In this document: positions 11,580-58,182 of the stretch, one piece after another | How positions within the stretch are numbered: position 1 is the stretch's first letter | How the letters are laid out: every line of letters starts with the position of its first letter | Assembly: GCA_902362715.1 (NCBI GenBank) | Contig: CABIXN010000003.1 | Location: forward strand, 229,586-293,585 | Direction: 5' to 3' | From: Lachnospiraceae bacterium | GTDB taxonomy: Bacteria > Bacillota > Clostridia > Lachnospirales > Lachnospiraceae | DNA length: 64,000 bases | Position numbers and translations under genes: made by a program | The notes under the pieces: generated by a model | The model's input: only the letters and a program-made list of their open reading frames with translations | Databases searched by the model: none | Told to the model about the DNA's origin: nothing

Positions 11580-11611
11580 TACCTTGTATTGACAAATAAA
11601 AACAAAATAAG

Positions 11612-11781
11612 AAAAGATAGAGGTTGCGTGATTCATCAGTAATCTGCCGGATGTGGCAGGCACAGAGGATGGCAGATGAAAGGGAAGAACGCCGAAAAGA
11701 AACATTTTCTGCAGATGTTTTTTTGGGCACAGGGCAAACAGGTCTGTGACTGTCATCAAAAGATGGGGAGCTATCGCTGAA
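11612..11781 (+). promoter_or_regulatory. Lysine riboswitch (L box)
   Basis: Conserved L-box blocks appear in the correct order: AGAGGTTGCG near the 5' end, CAGTAAT, GGGAAGAACGCCGAA, a GGGCA...CTGTGACTGTCATC block, and ATGGGGAGCTATCGCTGA at the 3' end. These are the hallmark elements of the five-helix lysine aptamer. It lies between a consensus promoter and dapA, whose product starts lysine synthesis, so it should reduce dapAB expression when lysine is high. The expression platform is the terminator at 11815-11845. Confidence 0.92.
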
Positions 11782-19746: not shown

Positions 19747-19857
19747 TTAGTATTAGAAAATATACCAGCAAAAAACATATTTGTTTCTAAAATTTTGACA
19801 GATTTGAAACTTTTTTGAAAAAAGGAAGCCACATAGTTAGTGAAAGGTGGTAAAAAA

Positions 19858-20415
19858 GTGATCGATCCCAATATTACAGCTTTTTTTAATGAGGTTTATG
19901 AGGAAACTCATAAGATGCTGTTGGTTTATCTGACAGGAAAATGCAGGAATCTGTCTGATGTCAGCGATCTATGTCAGGAGGTTTATCTTGAGTATTTTCG
20001 GATTCTGGCCCGGCGGGGAGTGAATTATGTGCGTTGTCCAAAGGCATATTTAAAGCGCATTTCTAAAAGAAAGCTGCATCAATATTACAATGCCAGAGAG
20101 TTTACGTACGAGACGGCCCTGTCAGAGGAGCAGAATGTTGAAGCTGTATCAAAAGAAGAAATAGAGCATTTCTGGGAGCGGGTTACAACCAGTGAAGAGG
20201 AAATTTTAGCGGAAGAAATTTATATATTTCTCCAAAGCAAACCAGAGGATGTGCAGAAAATTTTTTATTTATATTTCGAATTACAGCAGTCTATTGCACA
20301 GATTGCAAAAAGCCTGTCAATGAAAGAATCATCAGTAAAAAATAAGCTCTACCGGACGCGGAATGAACTTAGAAAACAGTATTTAAAGGAGGGCGCGGAT
20401 GAAAAAAGAAGATGA
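19858..20415 (+). CDS. Sigma-70-family (ECF-like) RNA polymerase sigma factor
   Basis: A 185-residue protein with a region 2-like part (VSDLCQEVYLEYFRILARRG, about 40-60) and a region 4 helix-turn-helix (QSIAQIAKSLSMKESSVKNKLYRTRNELR split around residues 145-175). Chosen GTG start at 19858 because AAAGGTGG is 7 bases before it; a GTG at 19840 lies further up. Its 3' end overlaps the next gene by 17 bases, so the two are coupled, a common arrangement for a sigma factor and its regulator. The target promoters are unknown. Confidence 0.85.
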   Translation: MIDPNITAFFNEVYEETHKMLLVYLTGKCRNLSDVSDLCQEVYLEYFRILARRGVNYVRCPKAYLKRISKRKLHQYYNAREFTYETALSEEQNVEAVSKEEIEHFWERVTTSEEEILAEEIYIFLQSKPEDVQKIFYLYFELQQSIAQIAKSLSMKESSVKNKLYRTRNELRKQYLKEGADEKRR

Positions 20416-20821
20416 ATTAATCAAAAAAGCAGTCCAAAGAGGCATGCCTGACAGAGAAAAGATTTTAAATTATTGCATCCATAGCCTGGAACTGGAACAA
20501 AAGGAGATGCAATCTATGAGAAGAAGAAAACTTAATCCAAGAAAGCTTATTGTACTGGGCTGTGTAGTTGTGGGAGTGCTGGCAGGCTCCACAATCTGCT
20601 ATGCGGCTACCGGAAAAACACCCCTGGAAAATGTAAGAGTGCTGGTAAATGGAAAAGAAGCCGATGTAACAACTTATCTGGGGACAGATGATACGATACG
20701 GTATGATTTTAAAGATGGGGGCAGTGTAGAAGTAAAAAATACAGGGGGATCTAAATACAAAGAAAATATAAAGATCACTGATAATAAAACAGAGCAGAGT
20801 GTAGAAGCGGAAATTAAATAG
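20399..20821 (+). CDS. Membrane protein coupled to the sigma factor, possible anti-sigma
   Basis: 140 residues: a charged cytoplasmic N-terminus (about 1-48), one membrane helix (LIVLGCVVVGVLAGSTICYA) and an extracellular part of about 70 residues rich in Lys, Asp and Thr. The layout and 17-base overlap with the sigma gene fit an anti-sigma or sensor partner, but no recognised domain is seen, so this is inference from context. It ends just before a strong terminator. Confidence 0.65.
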   Translation: MKKEDELIKKAVQRGMPDREKILNYCIHSLELEQKEMQSMRRRKLNPRKLIVLGCVVVGVLAGSTICYAATGKTPLENVRVLVNGKEADVTTYLGTDDTIRYDFKDGGSVEVKNTGGSKYKENIKITDNKTEQSVEAEIK

Positions 20822-20825
20822 CAGG

Positions 20826-20874
20826 AAAAGCCGGAGAGAAATTTGAATGTTCAGATTTCTCTCCGGCTTTTTTT
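20826..20874 (+). terminator. Terminator after the sigma/membrane-protein pair
   Basis: AAAAGCCGGAGAGAAAT pairs with ATTTCTCTCCGGCTTTT, followed by T residues. Repeat copy B begins at the end of the T-tract. Confidence 0.9.
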
Positions 20875-21014
20875 GCTCTATATATAGGAAATACTGTGTT
20901 GTGATAAAGCTGAAAAGTGCCGATTCCTATAGAGCAAAAAACGCTCCGCTGATGATCGCACTGCGGCGGAGTAAAATCATGTTGCTTGCGCAACCCGCGG
21001 CAGGATTCTTTTTT
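20875..21014 (+). repeat. Structured terminator-associated repeat, copy B (internally shortened)
   Basis: 140 bases. The 5' hairpin is kept (CTCTATATATAGGAA with TTCCTATAGAG; the left arm has a four-base insertion). The middle keeps CTCCGC and TTGC-ttgc-GCAA, but the segment containing the second CCGCCGCAG-GCGGAG arm is missing, so the inner stem now closes with CCCGCGG and runs straight to GCAGGATTC and a T-run. It lies between the sigma module and the recombinase gene. Confidence 0.8.
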
Positions 21015-21136
21015 ATTGATAGATTATAATTTAGGCTGATCTGTTAAAAATAATAATTCAGGTGAAAGAATCAGACCGTTTTTATAGAGCGGTGGTTTGG
21101 ATTCTGTGAATAACAAATAAAGAGAGGGAGCAGAAC

Positions 21137-21997
21137 ATGCGGAAAACAGATATAAAAATACAGCCTAAGATGGTAAATGGATTTAAAGATTATTTACAGG
21201 AGCGGGAAAATGCGCCGGCAACCATAGAAAAGTATATCCGGGATGTCAGAACCTTTCTGCGCTATGTGGATATGGTACAGGAAGATAAGATAAAAAAGGA
21301 TATATTGCTGGATTATAAAAGCTGGCTGCTTCAACATTATTCTATCAGCAGTGTAAATTCTATGATTGTGGCGTTAAATCAATTTTTAATCTATTTAGAA
21401 TTGGGAAGATTGCGGTTAAAAAGAGTTCGTGTGCAAAGGCAGGACATGGAAAATATGGAAAAAGAGCTTACAAAAGAAGAATTTCAAAAGCTGGTCAGAG
21501 ATGCAAGAAAACTGGGAAAGGATCAGCTGGCAATGATTATGGAAACGATGTGTGCCACGGGAATACGGGTCAGTGAACTGAAATTTTTTCGTGTGGAAAC
21601 AATGAGAACAGGTGTGGTTAAGGTCTGGAATAAAGGAAAGTACAGACTTGTGATTATTCCAAAGGAGCTTCAAATGCGGCTGCTGTTTTATATAAGAAAA
21701 AACGGACTTTCTCATGGGCCGATTTTTTGTACAAAATCTGGAAAAGAAAAGGACCGGTCAAATATATGGAAGGAAATGAAAAAGCTTGCAAAAGAAGCCG
21801 GAATTAATACGGATAAAGTTTTTCCGCATAATTTGAGACATCTGTTTGCCAGGACGTTTTACAAAACTACAAAAAATCTGATAAATCTGGCAGATATTCT
21901 TGGACACAGCAATCTGGAAGTAACAAGATCTTATGCTTCTGACGGGATTAAAGAATGGAAACGCAATCTGGAACGGATGCGGATACTAGAAGTTTGA
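21137..21997 (+). CDS. Tyrosine recombinase beside an invertible segment
   Basis: 286 residues: an N-terminal SAM-like DNA-binding half (ATIEKYIRDVRTFLRYV) and a catalytic half with the first Arg in ATGIRVSELKF, Lys in WNKGKYRLVII, HxxR in PHNLRHLFAR, the second His in LGHSNLEVTR and the nucleophile Tyr in TRSYAS. The size and layout match XerC/D-like and phage-type integrases that invert DNA in Lachnospiraceae and Clostridioides. Its stop codon overlaps the first base of a palindromic recombination-type site at 21997, and a matching inverted site lies at 22204. It probably inverts the DNA between them. A TATAAT at 21025-21030 could be its -10. Confidence 0.9.
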   Translation: MRKTDIKIQPKMVNGFKDYLQERENAPATIEKYIRDVRTFLRYVDMVQEDKIKKDILLDYKSWLLQHYSISSVNSMIVALNQFLIYLELGRLRLKRVRVQRQDMENMEKELTKEEFQKLVRDARKLGKDQLAMIMETMCATGIRVSELKFFRVETMRTGVVKVWNKGKYRLVIIPKELQMRLLFYIRKNGLSHGPIFCTKSGKEKDRSNIWKEMKKLAKEAGINTDKVFPHNLRHLFARTFYKTTKNLINLADILGHSNLEVTRSYASDGIKEWKRNLERMRILEV

Positions 21998-22020
21998 CAA
22001 CATAATATTAGTTATGTTGT
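21997..22020 (+). repeat. Left inverted recombination site
   Basis: Palindromic arms ACAACATAA and TTATGTTGT (9 bases each, perfect) around the 6-base spacer TATTAG. The spacer is the exact reverse complement of that at 22213-22218. Confidence 0.8.
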
Positions 22021-22203
22021 ATTATAGAAAATTCACAAATCAAACACGGTTTTCCTTTATTTTATAATACATATTTTTAATAGTCAAATTAAAAATCATA
22101 TTTTAATAGTAATAGTTTTTGTCTATATCTGAGAAAAGTTTTTGTTTCTTAAATCTATAATCTATAGAAATATTCCCTGATTTTACAGCTATACAGAGAA
22201 ATA
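22021..22203. other. Putative invertible promoter segment
   Basis: A very AT-rich 183-base stretch without a gene between the two inverted sites. On the minus strand it carries TTGACT-17-TAAAAT. On the plus strand I see only poor promoter matches such as a lone TATAAT near 22150. Crossover at the two 6-base spacers would turn it round and aim the strong promoter at the adhesin gene. Confidence 0.65.
22059..22087 (-). promoter_or_regulatory. Leftward sigma-A promoter inside the invertible segment
   Basis: Minus strand TTGACT (22082-22087), 17 bases, TAAAAT (22059-22064). As assembled it faces the 3' end of the recombinase gene and away from the adhesin. Confidence 0.7.
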
Positions 22204-22227
22204 ACTACATAACTAATATTATGTAGT
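22204..22227 (-). repeat. Right inverted recombination site
   Basis: Arms ACTACATAA and TTATGTAGT (9 bases, perfect) around CTAATA. The 18-base core (22207-22224) is the exact reverse complement of the core at 22000-22017. Confidence 0.8.
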
Positions 22228-22335
22228 ATCACATCCTCGTATCTGCAATGGAGAAGTTCATATGAGAAGACTGGTTTTTTATTCCATGTTAGCAGGCACA
22301 ATGTGTCACAAAAATATGAATGAGAGGAGAGTATT

Positions 22336-25300
22336 ATGTACAAGTCTAAAAAGACAAACAAAGCAGAGAAGAAACTGCGGCGTATTGGAACCAGACGAAT
22401 ACTTGCTATGGCGGCAGCGGCACTTATGGCGGCAGGTGCAGTGCCTCAGGGGACAGGCTTAGTCCAGGCAAAGGGCACGGTCTTAGAAGAAACAGATACG
22501 GCAAATAATTCGTCGGAAACATTTTGGTCCAGACTGACTGCCAAAGCAGCTTCTTTTTTTGGAATCGGCGATGACAGCAAAGAAAGGTCCGTGGATGATC
22601 ATACTGTAGAGGGAATATCCCCCCAGGGAACCACCATTAATCTGTTTGATTACTGGGTAAATCAGCGGGACAGCCCGGATTATGGATATAATAATGATGA
22701 TGGTGGTATTAATGCCGGGCATCAGCTGAAGTTTACAACCGGCAGCAGCGGTTCTATGAATTCCTGGACCGGGTTGGCGGCCCCAAGGGAGGGGATTGTT
22801 TCCAATAAGCTGGTTAACGGTTATCCCCAATTATCCGGAAGCAGTGAGCTTGGAATGACCAGAACGGAGTCGCTTGACTATCTGTTTAATGGAAATGATG
22901 TGGATTCAGAATCTGAGGTTGCGGGGAAAAAAGCTTATACAGATGTGGAAGGGCTTCTTCAGGTCAGCGATGACGGCTATTATTATTATGACAGTAAACA
23001 GAATTTTGCATCCTTTCAGGAGGAAAGCAATTCATTTGCGATATATGATGCCCCGGCGGTATATACAAATGAGGAGCCTAAAAATATAGGACAGTTTTTT
23101 CCTTTTAATACCGCAGAGACAGTTTTTAATGAAGTTGATGGAGCGCTGGAAGCCAAGGAATTGGGAACTCAGAATAATACAATAAAGCATTGGTTTGGGC
23201 TGACAATGACATCTCGATTTGTGCAGATGGATGGAGGAACTACCAGCAAAGGAGCTCCGGTTACCTATGAGTTCAGCGGAGATGATGATGTATGGATCTT
23301 TATTGACAATGTGCTGGTAGGTGACCTTGGAGGGATTCATTCAGCCGCATCGGTAAAGATTGATTTTTCCACCGGAGAAATTAGTATAAATGGTGAATCG
23401 GATGGAACGTTGAAAAGTAAATTTGATGCTGCGGGAGTGTCCACTGACGGATGGGACGAAAATACATTTCCTGATGATTCCCTGCACACGCTGCGGTTTT
23501 ATTATCTGGAGCGGGGAAATGTAGATTCCAATATGAGTCTTAAGTTTAACCTGGTTATGGTTCCTGAGAGCGATATTGTAAAAGTGGACCAGACCGGGAA
23601 TCCGGTTCAGGGAGCAGAATTTGCATTATATACAGCCAATGAAGATTTTGAGGTTACAAACCAGACGCCGGTTTCCACCGGGATTACAGACAGTGATGGA
23701 AAAATTGTTCTGGTGGATGAAAATGATACATTGATCAGCTTTGATGAGCTCCACAATGGAGGTTATGATTACTTTGTATTGGAGGAAACCAGTGTACCGG
23801 AAGGATATCGGAAAACCGGTGAGATGCATCTGCGCTATATTGCCAGTGAAAGCACGGGCAATATCGGGCGCGGGATTGTAGTTTCCGATAATTATGTAGA
23901 TACAGGTGCATTTGCCAATGCAAAGGTATCCACCACAGTTTCTACAGATATACAGGGGATTGACGGACGGAGCGTGCCGATTACAGATGGAAAGCTGGAA
24001 AGAGGAACCTTATTTGCAGTAATTCTTCATCGAAAAGAAGGAGGGGATCTGGAAGATTCTTCAAGCTGGTACGGCATCAGTGGAAGCGCACTTGAGGAGT
24101 GGACGACCTCTAAGGAAAATGGAACAAATCTTGCAGGTGTGCTGGAAACAGCAAAGAAAAATCCCATGGAATTTTACTTAAATTCCAGTGGTCTGTATCA
24201 GGTGGACATTCCGGAACTGCCGGGGGATATTCAATATTATTACAGTATGCTGGCAGATGATGAGAAAGAAGAGACAGAGTTTGCTATCGGATATTACTAC
24301 ACTTTCGCGGACAATATTGCAGATGCCGAGGAAGGGAATACTTTCCGATTGGATGATACACAATTTTCCAGCCAGTATGCGGCGAATTTTAATATTCCGG
24401 ATATCAAGAACCGTTTGCTGGTTCAAAAGCTGGATCAGGAGGGAAATCCTGTCAGTGGTGCAAAGTTCAGGCTTTATAATGCAGATGATGTAACGGTCAA
24501 TAATGACGGCAGTTATCAGGTGCGGGATGGCGCTGACAGTCAGGAAGTGACCACAGAGGATCTGACCAAAGAAAAGGACGGCATAACTATGCAGGGTGCA
24601 GCTGTATATGAAGGACTGTCCAATGGAAGATATTATCTTTTGGAGTCATCAGCGCCCAAAGGGTATCTGCTGAATAAATCAATTACAGAGGTAGTGGTGG
24701 ATGATTCCGGTGTCTATGCAGATGCAGGTGAGGCAGATGATGGAATTGTCACAGCCCGGGGTGTTGGCTCTCTGGTTCAGACGATGCTTCAGTTTGCCAC
24801 TAACGATGATATGGATACAACGTTCTATAACATACTGGCATCTTTGCAGACACAGGATACACAGCAATTTGACAGCTCCAAAGGCTGGTCTGACACTTCC
24901 CAGACAATGCATTTACAATATGATGCAGATACGGCAGCGTTAGAATATGTTCCAGGAGAAACTGATGGAGCAGTGCAGCTTTCTACAGATACCGGCTGGT
25001 CACGTTTAAGCATTAAGCAGTGTTATCAGCATGATGCCAATACTGACACAAGTACGAAAAAGAACCTGGGGGATACGGAACTGTCTCAGTTGTTTTCCGG
25101 AACGGTAACGGTTCAGGTAACGGATATTCGTTCGGCTGATTTAAAAATCAGTAAGACCGTAAACGGATATGAGGGAATTTCAGATGCCGATCTTGAGAAC
25201 CTGAAAGATCTTTCTTTTACTTTTCAGGTAACTCTTGAAGAAGAGTATGAAGAGGGAGGAACAGTAAACACAAGACCTCTGGAAGGAACCTGGCAGATTG

Positions 25301-28300
25301 TAAACCAGAATGGAGAACCGATTTTAGATGCTGATAGCAAAGAGATCGCAGTAGAAAACGGACAGGCGGTATTTACGCTGAAAAGTGGCCAGACAGCAGT
25401 AATCAAAGATCTTCCGGAAGGGGCAAAATATCAGGTTACAGAGAATTCTCCGGGACAAGGTTTTACTGCACAAGTAGAAAGTAACGATGCAGATGCAGAT
25501 CTTAATACAGCGGGAACCATCCGTGGAGATATCAAAGACTTAAATCCGGATATTTCCGGTCTGGAAGAGATTACGGCAGATTTTACAAACACTTATTCTC
25601 CGGCAGCTGTAACGGTAGAAGGGACAGATCTGTCCGGAACAAAAACTCTTGCCGGCAAGAACTGGGATGATACGGACAGCTATACCTTTGAAATTACAGC
25701 GGTAGAACCTCAGACAGCACCAATGCCGGAAAAGAAGACAGTTACACTGAACGGGAAGGAGCTGACAGTTTCCGGGAATACGCCGGTGTCCTTTAACTTT
25801 GGAGATATTACGTATACAAAGCCCGGCACATATATTTATAATATCAAAGAACAGCTTCCTGCCGGAATTGTACCGGGGGTAAGTTATTCCCAGGCCTCCT
25901 ATCGGGCAGTGGTTACTGTGACAGACCAGGATCAGAACGGCAATTATACAGGACAGTTAAGTGCGTCAGTTTCAATTGTAAAAGAGAAGGATGATACGGG
26001 TGCTGCGGCAGATACCCCTTCCCAACAGGCGGATTTTACAAATACATATAATTCGGATGCTGCTAATTTTGTATTGCTGGCCCAAAAAAACTATGATAAT
26101 CAGGGGAATCATCCGCTGACAGAAAATATGTTTTCTTTTGTGCTCTCCGGGAAAGAAGGAACAACAGAAAACGGTGCTAGTATAGATAAAGACAAAATTC
26201 CAATGCCGGATGAAACTGTGAATGGTATTTGTGAGTCCGGCAACAACAGTACGGGAGCTGTTTTTTTAGGAACACTCCATTTTGATCAGGCGGATGTAGG
26301 TAACGAATATGTTTATCAGGTATATGAAAAACAGCCTACAGATGATGGAACTTACCAGGGCAGCGCTTTGAAAGAAGGCTTACAGTCTGCATGGCAGGAC
26401 CCGGAAAAAGACAATGCCTGGGTATATAAAGGTGTAACTTATGATAAAGAGGTCAAAGAGATTACAGTATCAGTAACCCGGGATGCAAACAACACAATTA
26501 TTGTGACGGCAGAGTATGAAAATACCGGAGATACAATGCTGTACTTTGACAATACATATACACCAGATGCTGTCACGCTTTCCGGAAATACAGCTTTGCA
26601 GGGAGAGAAAACTCTGACGGGACGCAGTATGACAGCTGGCGAAGCTTTTGAATTTGAGCTTACTGCTGCCAATGATGCGGCTGAGACGGTACTGCCGGCA
26701 GCATTAACAGAAACGGTTAAGGATGTGGAAGATGGTACAGCAGAAAAATTTTCCTTTAAGGATTTGACGTTTACCGAAACAGGTACGTATATCTTCCATA
26801 TTACAGAAAAGCTGCCTGACGGTGTAAGTGCGGAGAATCCGATAAAAGAAGGAACTGTCTATGACACGCACACCACCATAGTAACAGTAGAGGTTACGGA
26901 CGATCAGGAGGGAAGTCTTACAGCGAAGGTTTCTTACAATAACGGAAGCGTAAGCAGTGAAACAGACCGGGCAGTTTTTTCCAATACTTACCGGGCTGTT
27001 GGAAGTTATAATATCACAGGTATAAAAGAAATAAGCGGCCGTGTATTTAACGGGAATGATCATTTTACTTTTAAAATAGAAGCTCTGGATAATGCTCCGC
27101 TGCCTTCCGGCGTTCTTGCAGACGGAACGATTGTTATTACACCTAAGTCAGGAACAAAGGCAGCCATAGACTTTGGAACAGTAAATTTTGATAAAGCAGG
27201 GCAGTCTTACAGCTATATTCTTTCAGAAGCAGAGCCGGCAGACAGTGAGAAGCCGGGAGGTATTTCTTACAGCAAAGATACCTACAAAATCACAATAACA
27301 GCAAAGGCCGGCGATACGCCGGGAACTTTGATTCCGGAAACTGTAATTGTTAAAAATCCGGGAGGTGATGATGAAACCGAAACTGATGAAATAGGATGGT
27401 TAAATCAGTACAGTGCCAGCGGAACACTGGAGGGAGCTGCAAATCTTGGCGGAACAAAAGTTTTAAGAGGAAGAGACTGGACTGCCGATGACAGATTTAC
27501 CTTCCGGCTGCAGGGCGGCAATCCTATGACCCAGGCAGCAATCTCGTCTGGAAAAGTGATTCTTCCGGCGGTTACGGAAAAAACAGTAAACAGTGATGAT
27601 CTGAATCAGGGTGAAGCAGCGTTTTCCTTTGATGATATTACTTTTACAAAGGCAACGGATCCGGGATATCCATACATCTTTCAGATAACAGAGAATCTGC
27701 CATCTGGGGTTAGTGAGGATCAGCCAAAAAAAGATGGGATCACTTATGATACACATAAATATCTGATTTCTGTTACGGTAACAGATAACGGGGACGGAAC
27801 GCTGGCGGTTGTTTCTGGACCTTTTTCGGGTTCTTCAACATTTACAAATGTTTACAGCTCCCTGATGCCGGAAGATGAGACGGCTAAAACAGATATTACG
27901 TTTACTAAAGAGCTTATTGGAAGAGACTGGACCGATACGGATGCATTTACATTCAGCATCACTGCACTGGATAATGCTCCCGTGCCAAAAGATCAGGACG
28001 GCAATGAGATCAGCCAGGTAACTGTGGAAAAAACGTCTGATTCGGATGTTTCAAAGGGTTCATTTGGAGAAATTCATTATACGTACGATATGATCAGCGG
28101 GGAGGCGGGATATTCAAAAACATTTGTTTACGAAATATCAGAAGTAATCCCTGAAGATTCCGGGAAACAGACTGGCATGAATTATGATAACAGTGTTTAC
28201 AGGGTGGAAATTACTGTAACCGATGACAAGAAGGGAACTATGACGGCAGATTCCGTTATAAAAAAGGAAAAAGCTGACGGAACTTATGAAGAAGTCAACG

Positions 28301-31167
28301 GGGTGGAATTTAAAAATACGTATAAAGCTCTTTCAAATACCCTGACTCCATTAAAGATTACGAAAATCTTAAGCGGCGGAAGAGAAGAAGCTTTACAGAA
28401 GGATGAGTTTTTCTTTGAGCTGTCAGTAACTGCTGTGGAGGGTTCACCGGAAGATGGTTTCCGGCTGCCGGCCAAGACAAAGTTAGGAAATGAGGCAGAT
28501 GGAAGCGTTCAGTTTGATGATATTGTCTTTACTGAAGAGGGAACTTATCAGGTAACAGTCAGTGAAGTAAAACCGGCGTCCGGTGTTTTGGAAGGGGTTA
28601 CTTACGATGACAATGTATTAACTTATACTGTGACCGTAAAAGATAATAACGGCAATCTGGAAGCGGAAATTTCAGATGTAACTGGCAGTCAGACCTTTAC
28701 CAATCAGTATCAGGCATCGGGAACTCTCAATGGTGCGGCAAATCTGAAAGTAACAAAAGAACTTTCCGGAAGAAACTGGCTTGATGATGACAGCTTTACC
28801 TTTGAGTTATCGCCGGGGGATGAGATTACCCAGAATGCGGTAAAAGATAAAACAGTAATTCTGCCGGAAGATACAAAACTGCAGATTACAGGTAAGGATC
28901 AAGTAAAGGAAAAAGCCTTTGGAGATATTACATTTACAAAAGCAGGGACTTATAAATTCCAGATTACTGAAGAAGAAGGAAAACAGGCGGGGATTACCTA
29001 TGATACAGTCCCGCGTATCCTGACAGTTAAAGTTACGGATAACAATGACGGAACACTGACCGTTGCAGGAACAGAAGTGGTTGAAAACTCTCTGACCTTC
29101 CATAATACGTATACAGCCGTACCGGCAGTGTCAGAAAATTTGACTGCTGAAAAAACATTAACAGGCAGGGATATGAAGGACGGTGAATTTTCCTTTTCTG
29201 TAACACCACAGAATCAGGCGCCTGCTCCTACAATGGTATCAGTGAAAAATACAGCGGCCAAAAATAATGAGACCAGTGAACTGAACTTTGGCAGAATTAT
29301 ATTTACAGAGGCCGGAAAGTACACATACCTTATAAAGGAAGAAAAGGGAAATCTGGGCGGTGTTTCGTATGACCAAAGAGAATATACCGTTACCTATATT
29401 GTGACGGACAACTTAAAGGGAAATCTGGAAATTGAATCTGAAGTTACTCTGGATGGAAAACCTGTTGATACGGTTTCCTTTAAAAATACTTATACGTCAG
29501 AAGCTGCAGAGATTTCAGGCAGTGCAGATTTAAGTGGAACAAAGACAGTTGTATCCGAGGATCCGGATTCTTCTTATACGATGAAGGGTAAAGAATTTGA
29601 ATTTGAAATAACTGCTTTAACAAAGGATGCTCCATTGCCGGAGGATACCATTGTTACGAATGATGCAGGCGGAAGTTTTTCATTTGGAAATATTACCTAT
29701 ACGGCTCCCGGCACCTACCGTTATCAGATTAGTGAGGTAAAGGGAAGTGCGGCCGGAATGTCTTATGACGGAAGTACGTATGAAGTTGTGGTGGAAGTGA
29801 CGGATAATGGCTTGGGACAGCTTCTTGCAAGTGTAAGCAAAAGCGGAGATTTAGAGTTCAGAAATCATTATAATCCCGAAAAAATCAGTGCTTCGATTTC
29901 AGGAACCAAGAGTCTTGCCGGAAGAGATCTGAAGGATCAGGAATTTAGCTTCCGTCTGGAGGCAGGGGATGATCTGACAAAGAAAGCAGTCAAGGAAGGC
30001 ATTGTAGTACTTGGCGGTCATGCAGACAGTCTGATTACAGACAATACACAGGCCGGTTCCTTCAACTTTGGACAGGATGCCATTACATTCTGCCAGGCAG
30101 GAAATTATACATTCCTTGTAACCGAAGAAAAGGGAGAAGATGCCAATATCACTTATGATGACACTGTTTATGAAGTAAAAGTGAATGTGACAGATGATAA
30201 TGGACTTCTGAAAGCAGAATGGAGCAAAGATCTGGATATTCACTTTGAAAATACCTATACTCCGTTTGAAACAGAGGTGTCCTTTGGCGGAACAAAAACA
30301 TTAGACGGAAGAACCATTAAAGATGGAGAATTCAAGTTTATTGTTACAGATGCACAGGGAAATGAAGTTTCAAAAGGAACAAATGATGCAGAGGGAAACA
30401 TTGAATTTGAGCCGGTTGTGTTTACAAAAGCCGGGGAATATTACTATGATATTACAGAGGTCAACAACGCAGTGGGCGGTATTGTTTATGACACAAATTT
30501 GTATCATGTGAAAGTTGTAATTGACGATGTTGACGGACAGCTGACAGCAGCATCTGTGATATATACTGCCGATGGCGGAGATTCTGAAAATGGTGCAGTA
30601 TTTAAAAATGTTTACCGGGCAGAGCATACTTCTGTTGTGTTAGGAGCAGTTAAAGAGCTGGAAGGACGCAGCCTGAAGGACAAGGAATTTACTTTTGTAT
30701 TGAAAGATGAGAACGGAAAAGTCATCGCTGAAGCACAGAATGACGAAACAGGTATGATTTTGTTTGAGGAAATTGCTTTTGACAAGGCAGGAACGTATCA
30801 GTACACTGTTTCAGAGGCTGCAGGAACAGAGGAAAACATTACTTATGATGAGACCGTATATTCGATTACGGTTACTGTGGAAGATAATCAGGAAGGATAT
30901 CTATCTGCGGCTGTGGATAATCACGGGCAAGATATAGTATTCCATAATCTGTATCAGGAAGCTCAGGCAGATCATCCAAAAGAGGATGATTCCAAAACAG
31001 ATCAGCCGGGGGCGGACAAAGACGATTTACAGATAGAGGATACAGCTGATGCACCAGCTACTGGAGACGGGCAGCCTGTATTTCAGAGTCTGGCAGTATT
31101 TGTAATCGCAGCAGCCGGTATACTCATTGCTGCAGGAGTGATAATCCGCAGAAGAAAACGGATGTAG
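22336..31167 (+). CDS. Giant cell-wall-anchored adhesin / pilin-like surface protein
   Basis: 2943 residues. A long signal peptide (basic start, then MAAAALMAAGAVPQG) leads to a fibro-slime/PA14-like domain at about 300-410 (FSGDDDVWIFIDNVLVGDLGG), two SpaA/Cna-B-type domains (KVDQTGNPVQGAEFALY near 415, VQKLDQEGNPVSGAKFRLY near 700), a further Cna-B-like domain near 935-1090, and about 13 tandem Spy0128/FctA-type pilin isopeptide modules to about 2870. Each module opens with a G-K-x-L-x-GR motif, has T.AGTY.Y.I.E and Y.V.V.VTD, and closes with an F.NTY motif. The C-terminus carries DAPATGD, a hydrophobic helix and RRRKRM: a variant sorting signal. It is expected to be secreted and sortase-linked. 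AGAGGAGAG precedes the ATG. Control is probably by the upstream invertible segment. Confidence 0.9.
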   Translation: MYKSKKTNKAEKKLRRIGTRRILAMAAAALMAAGAVPQGTGLVQAKGTVLEETDTANNSSETFWSRLTAKAASFFGIGDDSKERSVDDHTVEGISPQGTTINLFDYWVNQRDSPDYGYNNDDGGINAGHQLKFTTGSSGSMNSWTGLAAPREGIVSNKLVNGYPQLSGSSELGMTRTESLDYLFNGNDVDSESEVAGKKAYTDVEGLLQVSDDGYYYYDSKQNFASFQEESNSFAIYDAPAVYTNEEPKNIGQFFPFNTAETVFNEVDGALEAKELGTQNNTIKHWFGLTMTSRFVQMDGGTTSKGAPVTYEFSGDDDVWIFIDNVLVGDLGGIHSAASVKIDFSTGEISINGESDGTLKSKFDAAGVSTDGWDENTFPDDSLHTLRFYYLERGNVDSNMSLKFNLVMVPESDIVKVDQTGNPVQGAEFALYTANEDFEVTNQTPVSTGITDSDGKIVLVDENDTLISFDELHNGGYDYFVLEETSVPEGYRKTGEMHLRYIASESTGNIGRGIVVSDNYVDTGAFANAKVSTTVSTDIQGIDGRSVPITDGKLERGTLFAVILHRKEGGDLEDSSSWYGISGSALEEWTTSKENGTNLAGVLETAKKNPMEFYLNSSGLYQVDIPELPGDIQYYYSMLADDEKEETEFAIGYYYTFADNIADAEEGNTFRLDDTQFSSQYAANFNIPDIKNRLLVQKLDQEGNPVSGAKFRLYNADDVTVNNDGSYQVRDGADSQEVTTEDLTKEKDGITMQGAAVYEGLSNGRYYLLESSAPKGYLLNKSITEVVVDDSGVYADAGEADDGIVTARGVGSLVQTMLQFATNDDMDTTFYNILASLQTQDTQQFDSSKGWSDTSQTMHLQYDADTAALEYVPGETDGAVQLSTDTGWSRLSIKQCYQHDANTDTSTKKNLGDTELSQLFSGTVTVQVTDIRSADLKISKTVNGYEGISDADLENLKDLSFTFQVTLEEEYEEGGTVNTRPLEGTWQIVNQNGEPILDADSKEIAVENGQAVFTLKSGQTAVIKDLPEGAKYQVTENSPGQGFTAQVESNDADADLNTAGTIRGDIKDLNPDISGLEEITADFTNTYSPAAVTVEGTDLSGTKTLAGKNWDDTDSYTFEITAVEPQTAPMPEKKTVTLNGKELTVSGNTPVSFNFGDITYTKPGTYIYNIKEQLPAGIVPGVSYSQASYRAVVTVTDQDQNGNYTGQLSASVSIVKEKDDTGAAADTPSQQADFTNTYNSDAANFVLLAQKNYDNQGNHPLTENMFSFVLSGKEGTTENGASIDKDKIPMPDETVNGICESGNNSTGAVFLGTLHFDQADVGNEYVYQVYEKQPTDDGTYQGSALKEGLQSAWQDPEKDNAWVYKGVTYDKEVKEITVSVTRDANNTIIVTAEYENTGDTMLYFDNTYTPDAVTLSGNTALQGEKTLTGRSMTAGEAFEFELTAANDAAETVLPAALTETVKDVEDGTAEKFSFKDLTFTETGTYIFHITEKLPDGVSAENPIKEGTVYDTHTTIVTVEVTDDQEGSLTAKVSYNNGSVSSETDRAVFSNTYRAVGSYNITGIKEISGRVFNGNDHFTFKIEALDNAPLPSGVLADGTIVITPKSGTKAAIDFGTVNFDKAGQSYSYILSEAEPADSEKPGGISYSKDTYKITITAKAGDTPGTLIPETVIVKNPGGDDETETDEIGWLNQYSASGTLEGAANLGGTKVLRGRDWTADDRFTFRLQGGNPMTQAAISSGKVILPAVTEKTVNSDDLNQGEAAFSFDDITFTKATDPGYPYIFQITENLPSGVSEDQPKKDGITYDTHKYLISVTVTDNGDGTLAVVSGPFSGSSTFTNVYSSLMPEDETAKTDITFTKELIGRDWTDTDAFTFSITALDNAPVPKDQDGNEISQVTVEKTSDSDVSKGSFGEIHYTYDMISGEAGYSKTFVYEISEVIPEDSGKQTGMNYDNSVYRVEITVTDDKKGTMTADSVIKKEKADGTYEEVNGVEFKNTYKALSNTLTPLKITKILSGGREEALQKDEFFFELSVTAVEGSPEDGFRLPAKTKLGNEADGSVQFDDIVFTEEGTYQVTVSEVKPASGVLEGVTYDDNVLTYTVTVKDNNGNLEAEISDVTGSQTFTNQYQASGTLNGAANLKVTKELSGRNWLDDDSFTFELSPGDEITQNAVKDKTVILPEDTKLQITGKDQVKEKAFGDITFTKAGTYKFQITEEEGKQAGITYDTVPRILTVKVTDNNDGTLTVAGTEVVENSLTFHNTYTAVPAVSENLTAEKTLTGRDMKDGEFSFSVTPQNQAPAPTMVSVKNTAAKNNETSELNFGRIIFTEAGKYTYLIKEEKGNLGGVSYDQREYTVTYIVTDNLKGNLEIESEVTLDGKPVDTVSFKNTYTSEAAEISGSADLSGTKTVVSEDPDSSYTMKGKEFEFEITALTKDAPLPEDTIVTNDAGGSFSFGNITYTAPGTYRYQISEVKGSAAGMSYDGSTYEVVVEVTDNGLGQLLASVSKSGDLEFRNHYNPEKISASISGTKSLAGRDLKDQEFSFRLEAGDDLTKKAVKEGIVVLGGHADSLITDNTQAGSFNFGQDAITFCQAGNYTFLVTEEKGEDANITYDDTVYEVKVNVTDDNGLLKAEWSKDLDIHFENTYTPFETEVSFGGTKTLDGRTIKDGEFKFIVTDAQGNEVSKGTNDAEGNIEFEPVVFTKAGEYYYDITEVNNAVGGIVYDTNLYHVKVVIDDVDGQLTAASVIYTADGGDSENGAVFKNVYRAEHTSVVLGAVKELEGRSLKDKEFTFVLKDENGKVIAEAQNDETGMILFEEIAFDKAGTYQYTVSEAAGTEENITYDETVYSITVTVEDNQEGYLSAAVDNHGQDIVFHNLYQEAQADHPKEDDSKTDQPGADKDDLQIEDTADAPATGDGQPVFQSLAVFVIAAAGILIAAGVIIRRRKRM

Positions 31168-52470: not shown

Positions 52471-52500
52471 ATTAGACAACAGAAAGTGACAGGTATGATT

Positions 52501-55500
52501 ATGAAAAATACAAAAAAATACTTAAGACGTGGGATTTCCTGTAGTCTAGCAGCGTCTGTTTGTTTTACAGGATTTAACATAACACCATTGCTGGATGGAA
52601 GAATAGTAATGGCGCAGGAAATAGAATATCAAAAGCAGCTGGAAGAAACAAAAGTGGAAGTGTCTGAAGAGAGAACAGAGGACACTACCAGCTATCAGCT
52701 GGCAGATGGAACAAAGCAGCTTGTAATTCACTCAGGGGATGTCAGATATGAGAATGAGAGTGGAGAGCTGATAGATTATGATCCTACTTTAACTCAGATT
52801 ACAGAAGAAGTTTCTGAACAAAAGAGAAGTCTGGAAGGATATACATACGAAAATACAGAAGGTGATATGAAACATTACCTTCCTCAAAAACTGGATCCGG
52901 ATACTCCGCTTTTACTGGAAAATGGAAAGATGGCTATTGAGCTTCAGCCGGTAACAGACCAGGACAATAATGTATTTGGCATGGCCGGAGAATATGAAAA
53001 AGTACAGGCAGTTAAGGAAGATTATACGGATATTTATGATGAAGAAGAACCGGCAGTTGTCGGCGCCGTATATGAAACAAAAGATGAAAGTCTGGAATTA
53101 TCATATATTTCCAATACGGATGGGGTAAAAGAGACGATAGTCCTAAATGAAAAACCAAAAGGAAATGTATTTCGCTATTATCTTCAGTTAAATGGTCTTG
53201 AGCCGCTGATAAATGAAGAAACAAAAGAGATTGAGCTATACCGTGCAGGAGATACGGATGATCCTGCGGCTGTTATTGAAGCGCCCTATATGAATGATGC
53301 CACACAGGAGGCTTATAGTGAGGATATATATTATGATATTGAATCTAAAGACGACGGCCGCTATCTTCTTACCATGATAGTAGATCAGGGTTATTTAGAT
53401 AAGGCTCAGTATCCTGTTATAATTGATCCAACGGCTACCTGGAGCGGCAGTGCAAAAATAGATGATGTTTATATCGCAGATGGCGCACATAAAAACAGTA
53501 ATTTTTATGCGGCGGCTTCACAGGCATTTTTTGCAGGACAGAACCACAGCGGGTTAAAACTCAGATCATTAATAAAATTAAATGATTTGAAAAAGACACT
53601 GGACGGAAAGTGTGTGACCAGTGCAGTGTTGAATATGTATGAGGCAGGGGGAGATTCAGGAGTAACAGTAAACTCTTATGCTTTAACGTCTACCAGAGCT
53701 AACAGCTCCGCTACCTGGGCGAATCAGCCTACAATTAGCTCCACAGTGCTTGGAACCTGTAAAAGTACCGGAACCATAGGAAATAAAGTTACTATGAACA
53801 TGACAAAATTTGTTCAGGAGCTGTGTAACGGAACAAGATCTTATAATTATGGGATCATGATGAAGAGTACCAGTGAAGCAAATAAAAAATATGCTAAATT
53901 TTATGGCGTTCGTTTTACCACTGCAGGTAAGCGTCCCACTCTGGTTGTGAATTATGTAGATGGCCCGACAACAGCGACTTCTGTCAGCGCCAGTCCAAAT
54001 TATATCAAAAAGGGCGGGACAACGAAAGTTACCTGGGCAGGTATTAATACGTCCTATTTAAGCTATGTACAATACCGGATACAAAAAAGTGGTGCGGAAG
54101 ATAATTTGGTAAATTATTCATCCAGCACTAAAATCGGAACAACCGGTTCCGGTTCTGCCAATGTAACATTGGGAAGCTGGGCAGATGGTACGTACCGCAT
54201 TTATGTCCGGGGAGTAGATAAAGGTGGAATAAAAGGTGTTGCTAAAGGCGTGAATGTGGTAATTGACAGCACCAATCCGGTATTTGATAAAAATTCCGTA
54301 TCACCGGCAACATCGGCATCCGCTTATTCTAAAAGTTTACCGACCATGAGCTGGAAAGTAACGGATACAAATTTCAGGGACCTGTATTATTCTATAGATA
54401 AGGGGACTACCTGGAAAAAATTAAGCACGGCAAAAGAAGGCAGTGCAGCACTTCCGGCGTCAGATTTTAAAAAGACCGGAACATATCGCATTTTTTTAAG
54501 GGCTTATGACAAAGCGGGGAATTATAAAACATCCGCAGGGATGGATTATTATTATGATAATACGGCACCCAAAGCAAAAACAGTTACCAGATCAAACGAT
54601 GGTACCAATGTTTTAATATCTTTGTATGGATTATCAGAGGTAATTGATACAGATAAGGTGTACTATGCAGTTTCTGCAGGCGGTGCAGGCAGACCGGCAA
54701 AGACCTCTTATACTCCGGTTACAGCTCTTTCATATAAGGACAATAATCTTACAGTAAAGGTGCCAATAGACTCTAAAATCAATGCAGAGAAAGTATATGA
54801 TATTTATGTGGCGATAGGAGATAAAGCAGGAAATATTTCTTATGATAATCCGGTGAAGGCAGGATGGTACAATATAAAAAATGCTGTTTATGATGGTACT
54901 CTAATTGTGTCTGCGGATAAAAATGAAGAAAATCCTACGGATGACTGGTATTTATTTTGGGATACAGGTAATTCATCAAGTGGGTCAGCAGATAGTGTGA
55001 TTACATCAGCAGACATATATGAGAGTTTGGATGGAAATACATTTAAGAAGATAGGTACCAATACTACAGGACAGCAAGTGATTTCTGTCCCGGAAATGAA
55101 AGATTATGTTTCATATAGAATTGTAGCTTCCTATAAAGATGGGAGTAAACGGTTGTCTAATGTACAAAGTTTACGAAAAACAGCATTAGATGAATATGTC
55201 GAGACACAGGAGCAGGAATTGGGTGCATCTATTTCAGAAGAAGATGTAGATGAACTGGTTGCTATGGATGCAGTTGCAGTAAAGGAGGAATCGCCGGATA
55301 TTATTTCAGGAAAACAGCGTGCTGCAGAAAATATTGCGGAAGAATATGTTTATCTGAATGAAGAGATTGATACGGACGGCGACCAGCTATTGGATGGCTA
55401 TGAGATGTGGGAGATTGGAAGTGATAAAACATCAGCAGATTCTGATACAGATGGTTTTGATGATTATTATGAAGTGACTGTGTTAGGAACCAGTCCGGCC

Positions 55501-58182
55501 ATATACACGGCTGACGGTGATAACGATAAAGATGGAGTGCTAAACAGCAAGGAGAAACAGCTTGGAACAAATCCATATCTTCCGGACACTGATTTTGACG
55601 GTGTGAATGATTCTTCTGATAAGGAACCTTTAAAGACCAATACCGGTAATGGAGCAGCAGTATCTTATAGTATTATAGAGAATAATAATATTTATGAGCA
55701 TAAAATATCTAAAACAGAGGAAGGTTTGACGTTTGTTTACTGGTATAATCCCTACAGTGATTTAATTCGAAAAATTGAGCGGAGTACGGAAAAGAATGGA
55801 AAAGTTCAAGAATATTATTTTTATGATTCTAAAAAGCAGCAAATAGGACTTTTGCGTAATTATGGGAATAATAAATATGACGTAGTAACCAGTACATATG
55901 ATGGAAATGATGAAGTAAATTTTGCAGCTTATAATGGATTAGGATATACTATAAACAGAAATGATGATGGTGATCTATTATCTGTATCTGTAAATGGAGT
56001 GAACTTAATTAGTAATTCATTTGCTGTTACAGGAACGGGTGAAGATGCGTATACTTATCAGTCAAAGGCCTGGTTTGCCAATAATCAGGGAGAAACATAT
56101 GATTATACTCAGATTAATGTAACTGATGCAGACGGGAATGTATCCAAAGAGAAGGCGTTAAAAGGTGTTAAGATTGACGGAGCCTCAGCTTATAGTTATG
56201 AATATGCGTATGATTCTCAGGGAAATGTTCAAAAGTTAAAGGATAATGAAAATAATGTTCAATATACATATGAATATGATTCCCAAGGGGAAGTAGCCGG
56301 GATTACTGCAAGCAATGGATTTAAAATAAATAAGCAGAAGGATTCTGATACCGGAGATCAAAGGAGAACATATTCCTTTGGGAATGTTCAGCATAGCGTT
56401 GCGTATACGGAAAGCGGCTCTGATACATCAACAAAGAAAACATCCGTTATAGATACAGATTTATCTGTAGAGGAGCAGACAGACTCAAATTCGAAAAATG
56501 ATTCAAAAGTGATAAAATTCAAGAATAATTTGATTTTAGAAAATAAACAGGTTTTAGAAACAAATCAGCTTAGCTTGAGTTTGAAAAATAACAGAAAGCT
56601 GTTATACAAATATGATACCTGGGGAAATATTGCGTCAATATCATATTCAGATGGAAACAGTACAGCTAAAAACTATAGTGCAGAATATGAGTATAATACG
56701 AAAGGTGAATTAACCAGCGAGAAAAACAGCTTTTCAGGCACAAGTAAGAAATATGAATATGATGGAAATGGCAATAGGGTTAGTAAAAAGGAATATGATA
56801 AGGCAGGCAAGCTTGTGAAAACAGGTTCGTTTACATATGATGCTGTCTGGCGTGATAAGATTGCAGGATATACCGAAAATGGTGTAAAAAAATCTATTTC
56901 CTTTGATAAACTTGGAAATCCGATAAATTGGCTCAATGATTTGAAGTTTACCTGGAAAAATGGGAGACGTTTAAACACAGCAGAAAATCCTGAATATTCT
57001 GTCGTGTATAAGTATGACGTAACCGGATTAAGAACACAAAAGAAAGTAACAGAAAAAGCAGGAAATATTAGTACAACCTATGACTATATCTGGGACGGAA
57101 ATGCGCTCTTACGGGAAACAAGAACAACCGGACAAAAAAAGCTGGTATTTGATTATTTGTACGACGGTAATTATAATATAATTGGCTTTAAATTATCCGG
57201 AAGCGGGATTGCCGAAAAAACATATATATTTGAACAGGATGTACAGGGGAATATAGCCGCTGTATATGAATTAGGTGATAAGTCAGCGGCCTGCGTGGCG
57301 GAATATGTTTATGATGCATATGGCGAGTTAGTTAAAGTAACAAATAATACAAATGATAATATAGGGGATTTAAATTTATTCCGATACAGAGGATACTATC
57401 AGGATGTGGAGACAAATCTTTATTATCTGCAGAGCAGATATTATGACGCATCTGCCGGAAGGTTTTTAAATATGGACAATATTTTATATCTAGGAGTTAA
57501 TCCGGATATATACAATTGTTCTTATAATTTGTTTGTATATTGTGAAAATGATCCGGTAAATTATGTTGATGAGACAGGAAGTTTACCATCATTTAAAACA
57601 ATTAAAAAAATGGTTAACAAGTATCTAGGAGGCTGGTATTACCGGAATGGTAAAACAATATATTATTGGGGGAAGCGTTCACCACAATCATTAGCGGGAT
57701 ATAATGATATGTATGATGGATTATCCGGAATGATAGGATGTAATTTGTCTAATAATAAAATAATAGAATATAATTCAAAAATTTGGTGGAGATTTCAATT
57801 TTGGAAAGGCTCATATGGGTTTACCAGGTTATATGGGGCAGAAATAGGAGTTTATTATAAAAAAGGCGGCGGTTCTGGTGGACACTATACATGTGCCAAA
57901 AAATATCCGTTAAAGATGTCATTTTCATTATATAATAAGAAAAACCAGCGTTTGTTTTCGACAATTTCAGAAAATACGTGGTGGAAAAATGGATTTGTCT
58001 GGGGGTATCAACACCGGAACAATTTAATAATGGTTTCTAAAATATATTTTCCGAATACTTCAATAGGAAATTCTCAAAAAGCTGCATTTGTCAAAGGTAA
58101 GAAAAATCTAAAAAATTGTGAAATATCTCAAAAAGGAAGAATTTATACAATTAAATGGAAGAAAAATGGGAATGAGAGATAG
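52501..58182 (+). CDS. Large secreted RHS/YD-repeat protein with DNRLRE and DUF4474-like C-terminus
   Basis: 1893 residues. Signal peptide (RRGISCSLAASVCFTGFNI); a DNRLRE-type domain at about 313-485; Ig-like repeats at about 490-800; a Ca-binding thrombospondin-3-like stretch at about 956-1045 (DTDGDQLLDGYE, DSDTDGFDDYYE, DGDNDKDGVLNS, DTDFDGVND); YD repeats from about 1060; the RHS core end at about 1628-1695 (RYRGYYQDVETNLYYLQSRY, AGRFLNMD, ENDPVNYVDETG). The last about 195 residues after the core form a variable tip with WRFQFWKGSYG and GAEIGVYY, which I recall as DUF4474-like. RHS proteins display C-terminal toxic or effector tips. Start 52501 or 52495; the ribosome site is weak, suggesting coupling to the gene before. 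Confidence 0.85.
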   Translation: MKNTKKYLRRGISCSLAASVCFTGFNITPLLDGRIVMAQEIEYQKQLEETKVEVSEERTEDTTSYQLADGTKQLVIHSGDVRYENESGELIDYDPTLTQITEEVSEQKRSLEGYTYENTEGDMKHYLPQKLDPDTPLLLENGKMAIELQPVTDQDNNVFGMAGEYEKVQAVKEDYTDIYDEEEPAVVGAVYETKDESLELSYISNTDGVKETIVLNEKPKGNVFRYYLQLNGLEPLINEETKEIELYRAGDTDDPAAVIEAPYMNDATQEAYSEDIYYDIESKDDGRYLLTMIVDQGYLDKAQYPVIIDPTATWSGSAKIDDVYIADGAHKNSNFYAAASQAFFAGQNHSGLKLRSLIKLNDLKKTLDGKCVTSAVLNMYEAGGDSGVTVNSYALTSTRANSSATWANQPTISSTVLGTCKSTGTIGNKVTMNMTKFVQELCNGTRSYNYGIMMKSTSEANKKYAKFYGVRFTTAGKRPTLVVNYVDGPTTATSVSASPNYIKKGGTTKVTWAGINTSYLSYVQYRIQKSGAEDNLVNYSSSTKIGTTGSGSANVTLGSWADGTYRIYVRGVDKGGIKGVAKGVNVVIDSTNPVFDKNSVSPATSASAYSKSLPTMSWKVTDTNFRDLYYSIDKGTTWKKLSTAKEGSAALPASDFKKTGTYRIFLRAYDKAGNYKTSAGMDYYYDNTAPKAKTVTRSNDGTNVLISLYGLSEVIDTDKVYYAVSAGGAGRPAKTSYTPVTALSYKDNNLTVKVPIDSKINAEKVYDIYVAIGDKAGNISYDNPVKAGWYNIKNAVYDGTLIVSADKNEENPTDDWYLFWDTGNSSSGSADSVITSADIYESLDGNTFKKIGTNTTGQQVISVPEMKDYVSYRIVASYKDGSKRLSNVQSLRKTALDEYVETQEQELGASISEEDVDELVAMDAVAVKEESPDIISGKQRAAENIAEEYVYLNEEIDTDGDQLLDGYEMWEIGSDKTSADSDTDGFDDYYEVTVLGTSPAIYTADGDNDKDGVLNSKEKQLGTNPYLPDTDFDGVNDSSDKEPLKTNTGNGAAVSYSIIENNNIYEHKISKTEEGLTFVYWYNPYSDLIRKIERSTEKNGKVQEYYFYDSKKQQIGLLRNYGNNKYDVVTSTYDGNDEVNFAAYNGLGYTINRNDDGDLLSVSVNGVNLISNSFAVTGTGEDAYTYQSKAWFANNQGETYDYTQINVTDADGNVSKEKALKGVKIDGASAYSYEYAYDSQGNVQKLKDNENNVQYTYEYDSQGEVAGITASNGFKINKQKDSDTGDQRRTYSFGNVQHSVAYTESGSDTSTKKTSVIDTDLSVEEQTDSNSKNDSKVIKFKNNLILENKQVLETNQLSLSLKNNRKLLYKYDTWGNIASISYSDGNSTAKNYSAEYEYNTKGELTSEKNSFSGTSKKYEYDGNGNRVSKKEYDKAGKLVKTGSFTYDAVWRDKIAGYTENGVKKSISFDKLGNPINWLNDLKFTWKNGRRLNTAENPEYSVVYKYDVTGLRTQKKVTEKAGNISTTYDYIWDGNALLRETRTTGQKKLVFDYLYDGNYNIIGFKLSGSGIAEKTYIFEQDVQGNIAAVYELGDKSAACVAEYVYDAYGELVKVTNNTNDNIGDLNLFRYRGYYQDVETNLYYLQSRYYDASAGRFLNMDNILYLGVNPDIYNCSYNLFVYCENDPVNYVDETGSLPSFKTIKKMVNKYLGGWYYRNGKTIYYWGKRSPQSLAGYNDMYDGLSGMIGCNLSNNKIIEYNSKIWWRFQFWKGSYGFTRLYGAEIGVYYKKGGGSGGHYTCAKKYPLKMSFSLYNKKNQRLFSTISENTWWKNGFVWGYQHRNNLIMVSKIYFPNTSIGNSQKAAFVKGKKNLKNCEISQKGRIYTIKWKKNGNER

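Follow-up and report, generated by a model that had tools for sequence, protein, structure and literature searches.

Genes and features of the locus

The window, by which we mean the whole 64,000-nucleotide stretch of DNA analysed here, carries a tyrosine recombinase gene, a short cassette bounded by inverted sites and a giant adhesin-like gene, in that order. The recombinase gene (21137-21997, + strand) encodes a Xer-like protein of 286 amino acids (Pfam Phage_integrase, E 8e-23) that is the candidate inverter of the cassette. Residues R144, K168, H231, R234, H257 and Y266 do not vary across 15 aligned recombinases, the window's included; we take them to be the catalytic R-K-H-R-H-Y set, by which the protein belongs to the tyrosine recombinase superfamily. 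Within that superfamily it scores below the NCBIfam cut-off of every model matched, and so classifies neither as a XerA, XerD or XerC equivalog (134.1, 108.9 and 98.6 bits against cut-offs of 220, 329.6 and 335.15, respectively) nor as a FimB/FimE-type invertase (18.4 bits against 222 for NF007371, the tyrosine-type DNA invertase model, which presumably covers FimB and FimE). Its nearest relatives, among the best 80 of at least 559 loci, are in records named Egerieimonas, Lachnoclostridium and Blautia. A phage or plasmid origin was considered and rejected: a single-protein scan of viral contigs, which detects close relatives only, confirmed no match, and all recombinase matches in phage and plasmid records are below 60% identity.

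Downstream of the cassette, an open reading frame encoding 2943 aa (22336-31167, + strand) confirms the giant adhesin-like gene that the sequence-only reading had placed from 22336. A ribosome-binding-site-like AGAGGAG, read from the sequence, lies at 22323-22329 (+ strand), 6 nt upstream of the ATG. Domain searches and reading of the sequence give a signal-like N-terminus, SpaA, 13 FctA isopeptide stretches, a weak PA14/fibro-slime-like region (with the fibro-slime score under its cut-off) and a C-terminal sortase-type anchor consisting of PATGD, a hydrophobic stretch and RRKRM. The repeats are matched by four solved pilin-backbone sequences. A structural model of the N-terminus (mean pLDDT 67) shows only weak resemblances, with pilin backbones as top matches at TM-scores below 0.2 and PA14 (sugar-binding) and SpyCatcher-like or CnaB-type folds among the lower-ranked ones. 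We name the protein adhesin-like, and predict it to be wall-anchored with pilin-like repeats. Its closest relative (70%) and the closest non-identical relative of the recombinase (78%) are each on a contig of 169182 bp; these are probably one and the same contig, so that an adhesin-like gene would lie beside the recombinase of the closest relative. An identical recombinase is encoded on a public contig of 7,080 bp (P0001).

Several other features of the window were recorded. A lysine riboswitch (118.6 bits) is found at 11610-11781. An ECF-type sigma factor gene is followed by an overlapping 140-aa ORF without a Pfam match (together 19840-20821), and a strong terminator-like hairpin (20826-20871) lies between this pair and the recombinase gene. 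Further downstream, an ORF of 1898 aa (52486-58182), which contains RHS repeats and has DUF4474 at its C-terminus, resembles a polymorphic RHS-type protein, and beyond it lies an ankyrin-repeat ORF (61369-62826).

A pair of inverted sites directly 3' of the recombinase gene

The cassette spans 231 bp (21997-22227) including both sites. The left site (21997-22020, + strand) reads ACAACATAA-TATTAG-TTATGTTGT and the right site (22204-22227, + strand) ACTACATAA-CTAATA-TTATGTAGT, so that inverted sites flank a short segment, as in promoter invertons. The two 24-base sites with perfect 9-bp dyad arms and mutually reverse-complementary 6-bp spacers, reported from sequence alone, are thus present in the DNA. 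The 183 bp between them (22021-22203), which have no strand of their own, are the candidate invertible segment, and related segments are found inverted. The overlap claimed between the recombinase stop and the left site is also borne out, as the final base of the TGA (21995-21997) is the first base of the site.

Left and right sites are complementary at 22 of 24 bases and differ by one base per arm. No other pair in the 64-kb window is as complementary (at least 22/24) at a spacing of 80-1000 bp, and among 300 dinucleotide shuffles of the region 20500-23500, one has such a pair. If at most one mismatch is allowed, the core ACATAA-N6-TTATGT is present twice in the window, at these two sites (mean in shuffles 0.38; two or more in 6 of 100). 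Since seven 24-mers in the window form a perfect 9-6-9 dyad, the dyad by itself is unremarkable; what is notable is the matched pair adjoining a recombinase gene.

Site pairs and spacers across the recombinase family

The family sample was gathered by recombinase similarity and not by sites, from 80 loci on genome contigs (the best 80 of at least 559), whole genomes and regions taken by position. After copies with identical 3' ends were dropped, it holds 193 distinct recombinase genes, including that of the window. Sites were picked by the 12 arm bases alone, with up to two mismatches. Two downstream sites are found for 122 of the 193 genes, and at 121 of these 122 loci, the window among them, the spacers are exact reverse complements; the single mismatching pair, L177, has two mismatches in each of its sites. 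The paired loci have 74 different spacers, and 5000 permutations of the spacer pairings give a mean of 1.7 matches and a maximum of 9, against the 121 observed. When the outermost two sites within 1.2 kb were taken instead (the first and the last), in an earlier form of the test, reverse-complementary spacers were seen at 62 of 68 loci. These counts support the proposal that the spacers dictate inversion and not deletion. Although the loci do not count as phylogenetically independent, 74 different spacers imply many changes that struck both sites together. Between L095 and L131 a single spacer base differs, and it is altered in both sites of each locus.

Among genes with at least 700 bp of downstream sequence (n = 132), 107 have the pair, 9 are missing the second site and 16 the first; divergent arms are seen at some of the loci without a recognised pair, L028 and L031 among them. 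At 117 of 121 loci no more than 60 nt separate the recombinase stop from the start of the left-site core, and at 27 of the 121 the stop codon is itself the TAA of ACATAA. The arm sequence is common to recombinases from 69% down to about 41% identity with that of the window.

Genome G006 (6.2 Mb) contains eight exact copies of the core motif, which form four inverted pairs with four spacers, each pair adjoining a recombinase match, and a fifth recombinase relative there (L101) has imperfect arms. Seven further genomes were scanned, of which six have exact motif matches and one (G055) has none: G278 holds 14 sites in six switches, G175 one pair, and G016, G017, G384 and G072 hold pairs plus partnerless exact sites. 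As a reversed-pattern control gives 0 to 6 matches per genome (2 in G006, 6 in G278), a lone motif has little meaning, and it is the pairing that bears the weight.

These distributions bear on which enzyme would act at the sites. Arms shared over so wide a range of recombinase identity make cross-action conceivable, and the cassette might be flipped in trans by another recombinase, as by RecV at cwpV of C. difficile, where recV is not near its target in the available text of PMC2784873. The partnerless motifs of four genomes would fit such action. We consider it unlikely, given that the site directly follows a recombinase gene at nearly every paired locus and that all eight exact motifs of G006 adjoin such genes.

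Two further ideas about the sites found no support. One was that spacers form a deliberate address code within a genome: identical spacers are seen in 4 of 56 pairs from one genome and in 83 of 9260 (0.9%) from different genomes, and when pairs are compared at like recombinase identity (matched bins, 17 same-genome pairs) those from one genome are no more diverged. The other was a link to dif: TTATGT resembles what we take to be the XerD arm of dif, but a dif-like pattern (up to three mismatches, seven genomes) gave 13 matches against 10 for its reversed control, which leaves the likeness as a lead.

Two or three tandem site copies at one or both ends were seen at L008, L011, L034, L045, L047, L051, L057, L075 and L080; between L047 and L051 the extra copy has shifted from the left end to the right end, as expected from inversion via the outer sites. 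Recombinase matches split in two occur beside a site pair at L109 (G007) and beside a single site at L103 (G002), and it is possible that these are locked switches.

A predicted promoter at a fixed position

A consensus scan finds one promoter-like match inside the segment, the predicted sigma-A promoter TTGACT-17-TAAAAT (22059-22087, - strand). It points left, away from the adhesin-like gene, as the sequence-only reading had said. The segment scores 12.3 leftward against 5.9 rightward, and for this reason the assembly is predicted to be in the OFF state, in agreement with that reading. An internal promoter that would face the target in one of the two orientations, as in a promoter inverton, is at this locus a prediction from sequence. 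An AT-rich dyad with 9-bp arms (22073-22096, no strand) has the -35 hexamer of the predicted promoter as its 6-bp centre, and may be an operator or a chance occurrence.

The scanned region as a whole has fewer promoter-like matches than shuffled sequence (3 against a mean of 5.6), which makes the call weak on a single sequence, and it therefore leans on comparison with the family. Scores were computed for 108 of 109 paired loci, those whose segments contain no ambiguous bases. In 93 of the 108, the top promoter-like sequence faces outward at a distance of 20-60 bp from a site core, against 21.1 expected from shuffles, and 63 of the 108 score above the 95th percentile of their shuffles. All 14 listed loci with at least 51% recombinase identity (13 relatives and the window) have a TTGAC-type -35 at the best match, and the window's ATGTATTATAAA stretch is also present in L082 and L137.

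The same scans bear on a different way of switching, in which the adhesin would be transcribed from a promoter external to the segment, and a terminator or mRNA structure would be formed or abolished by inversion. This is the mechanism proposed for C. difficile cwpV in the available text of PMC2784873. The family's segments are enriched in terminator-like hairpins (of 120, 15 have one in the first direction and 21 in the other, where 2.3 and 2.7 are expected), and a weak rightward promoter-like match (9 of 12) lies at 21804-21832, within the recombinase gene. The segment of the window (22021-22203), however, has no terminator-like structure by scan, and the consensus scan gives no rightward promoter-like match between 21833 and 22336; the family signal is moreover that of a promoter at a fixed position. 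For the first two of these reasons a cwpV-type mechanism is disfavoured, and we regard it as highly improbable here.

Both orientations among relatives

Five pairs of related loci have the segment in opposite orientations between collinear flanks. In L003 and L139, whose two genomes are assigned to a single genus, the left flanks are 86.6% identical over 800 bp and the right flanks are collinear, and the 147-bp interior aligns only once inverted (score 185 against 19). L047 and L051 likewise align inverted (286 against 75), as do L095 and L131, and L187 and L204, the latter two being paralogues on a single contig; these four pairs span 147-212 bp. The fifth, L012 and L154, is based on 55 aligned bp, and L012 is likewise in opposite orientation to L178, its paralogue within one genome. 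The promoter caller assigns opposite states in 9 of 9 inverted segment pairs and equal states in 14 of 14 same-way pairs, which is a consistency check and not independent evidence because the pairs were chosen from the inversion list, are homologous and overlap.

Contig ends may carry a trace of the same process. Of 34 contigs that end within 600 bp past the recombinase stop, with the left site recognised in 23, seven (L018, L024, L085, L059, L225, L014 and L202) stop 0-6 bp beyond the left site, whereas ends spread evenly over the 600 bp would put about 0.4 there. L018 and L059 are records with strain names and not MAG labels. Breaks at the left site are what a population of mixed orientation would cause. 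Both orientations are thus seen in relatives, the contig breaks are suggestive, and the strain of the window is represented by one orientation.

That single known orientation, together with the one-base difference per arm between the sites, is what would be seen if the locus belonged to the switch family and no longer flipped in this strain. Yet the core and both spacers are undamaged, the full-length recombinase ORF retains the residues invariant among relatives, and inverted forms are found in nature even where the outer arms are unequal (L003/L139). A locked relic is therefore, in our judgement, very unlikely.

Target genes across the family

For the 121 paired loci a target gene could be assigned in 105; seven have too little downstream sequence and nine no ORF. 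A heuristic finds a signal-like N-terminus in 62 of the 105, and not all targets look like surface proteins. Pfam searches on the first 600 aa at most of 71 of the 105 targets give 83 families, none in more than four members. The 25 families listed of these 83 include SpaA, leucine-rich repeats, Listeria-Bacteroides repeats and von Willebrand domains, and also capsule genes, GGDEF/EAL proteins and TetR regulators. Among seven related loci searched for a gene resembling the window's adhesin, three (L138, L167 and L168) have one next to the recombinase, with long matches, and these have the most similar recombinases of the seven (64-68% identical); the match is absent at L139, L169 and L170 (recombinase 54-61%) and short only at L171.

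Proposed mechanism

Sites, spacers, promoter-like sequence and gene order can be read directly from the DNA, and relatives of like layout occur in both orientations. We consider it highly likely that the recombinase inverts the 231-bp cassette and thereby connects or disconnects the predicted promoter and the adhesin-like gene, with the assembly in the predicted OFF state. The four ACATAA/TTATGT half-sites would be occupied by two recombinase dimers, with strand exchange taking place inside the 6-bp spacer. As the arms are palindromic, direction would be set by the spacer alone, giving inversion and not deletion here. Inversion would move the promoter to 22137-22165 on the + strand, facing right; transcription in the ON state would start near 22172, with a leader of about 165 nt running via the right site to the ATG at 22336. 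The 5' leader folds no more strongly than shuffled sequence (z 0.19). Flipping of the cassette would in this way switch the adhesin-like gene ON and OFF. The sequence-only reading holds on nearly all points, and each step that it had inferred now has comparative support from relatives.

A feedback is conceivable, though doubtful: in the OFF state the promoter would run antisense through the recombinase gene and damp it, so that OFF would be self-stabilising, while ON would lift the brake. The short distance between the recombinase stop and the left-site core in most loci fits this proposal, as do a scan that gives no leftward terminator-like match inside the recombinase gene (21137-21997) and the excess of predicted OFF over ON states (80 against 28 of 108 segments; 91 against 29 of 120 in a second count), which could also come from selection or culture bias. 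Against it, the stretch from the site to 300 bp along the antisense path contains a terminator-like structure at 19 of 91 OFF loci, a count without a shuffle control.

Relation to known switches

The fimS element of E. coli holds a promoter, with the fimbrial genes beyond it, and the fim switch has host-factor sites for IHF and Lrp. Layout and logic match those of fimE-fimS-fimA, where a recombinase gene likewise lies immediately 5' of the invertible element; the fim switch differs in having two recombinases against one here, while the sites here are perfect dyads with a 6-bp spacer, and the window recombinase scores far under the tyrosine-type DNA invertase model. Our working model is a predicted fimE-fimS-fimA-like promoter inverton that would be OFF in the assembly. 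According to the available text of the sources, fimE is directly 5' of fimS (PMC5386303) and the E. coli fim invertible element measures 314 bp (PMC9993118).

The sequence-only reading had also taken it as established that tyrosine recombinases flip promoter cassettes in C. difficile. As far as the available text of the sources goes, this stands for cmr and pdcB, which carry an invertible promoter (PMC9286219), and fails for cwpV, which has none (PMC2784873); the cwpV and flg switches act after transcription start (PMC9286219). By the same partial texts, the C. difficile switches resemble the locus in belonging to Clostridia, in the use of a tyrosine recombinase (RecV serves cwpV, flg and cmr) and in having short inverted repeats, which flank 195 bp at cwpV and belong to a 174-bp element at pdcB. 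They differ in that recV is remote from cwpV, whereas the recombinase gene here abuts the site, and in that their repeats are imperfect (21 bp at cwpV, 19 bp at pdcB).

A closer match is described in the available text of PMC11892184, where hCom2 inverton group 139 with invertase group 35 comprises 33 invertons, 32 of them in Clostridia, with a nearby tyrosine-type recombinase, and where orientation shifts of group 139 are seen in reads of Clostridium sp. D5 and Intestinimonas. The locus probably belongs to this family, a likeness by description and not by comparison of motifs. The same text holds invertases near invertons to be generally non-regulatable by the switch promoter, and in the part available makes no mention of antisense control of the recombinase.

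The promoter inverton is an established type of switch, of which the locus would be a further member. Among the literature matches listed, none is by its title or abstract an account of these sites or of the locus, and none dissects a switch of this make in Lachnospiraceae-type Clostridia. Also not found in print among these matches are an explicit site rule, palindromic arms with spacer-only polarity, and a conserved junction of recombinase stop and site with a predicted antisense consequence.

Significance

In a bacterium with Lachnospiraceae-type Clostridia as its nearest relatives, phase variation appears to act on a predicted wall-anchored protein of 2943 residues with pilin-like repeats, a kind of protein that is expected to determine attachment. 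The family comparison yields a rule, which is a recombinase stop, ACATAA-N6-TTATGT, an outward promoter 20-60 bp inside, the same site with the reverse-complementary spacer, and then the target; it would list such switches, with their predicted state, in any genome without the need for reads. The model also predicts orientation-dependent antisense control of the recombinase. If true, the antisense loop would be a built-in bistable feedback common to a large family in Clostridia, in which the switch sets its own flip rate.
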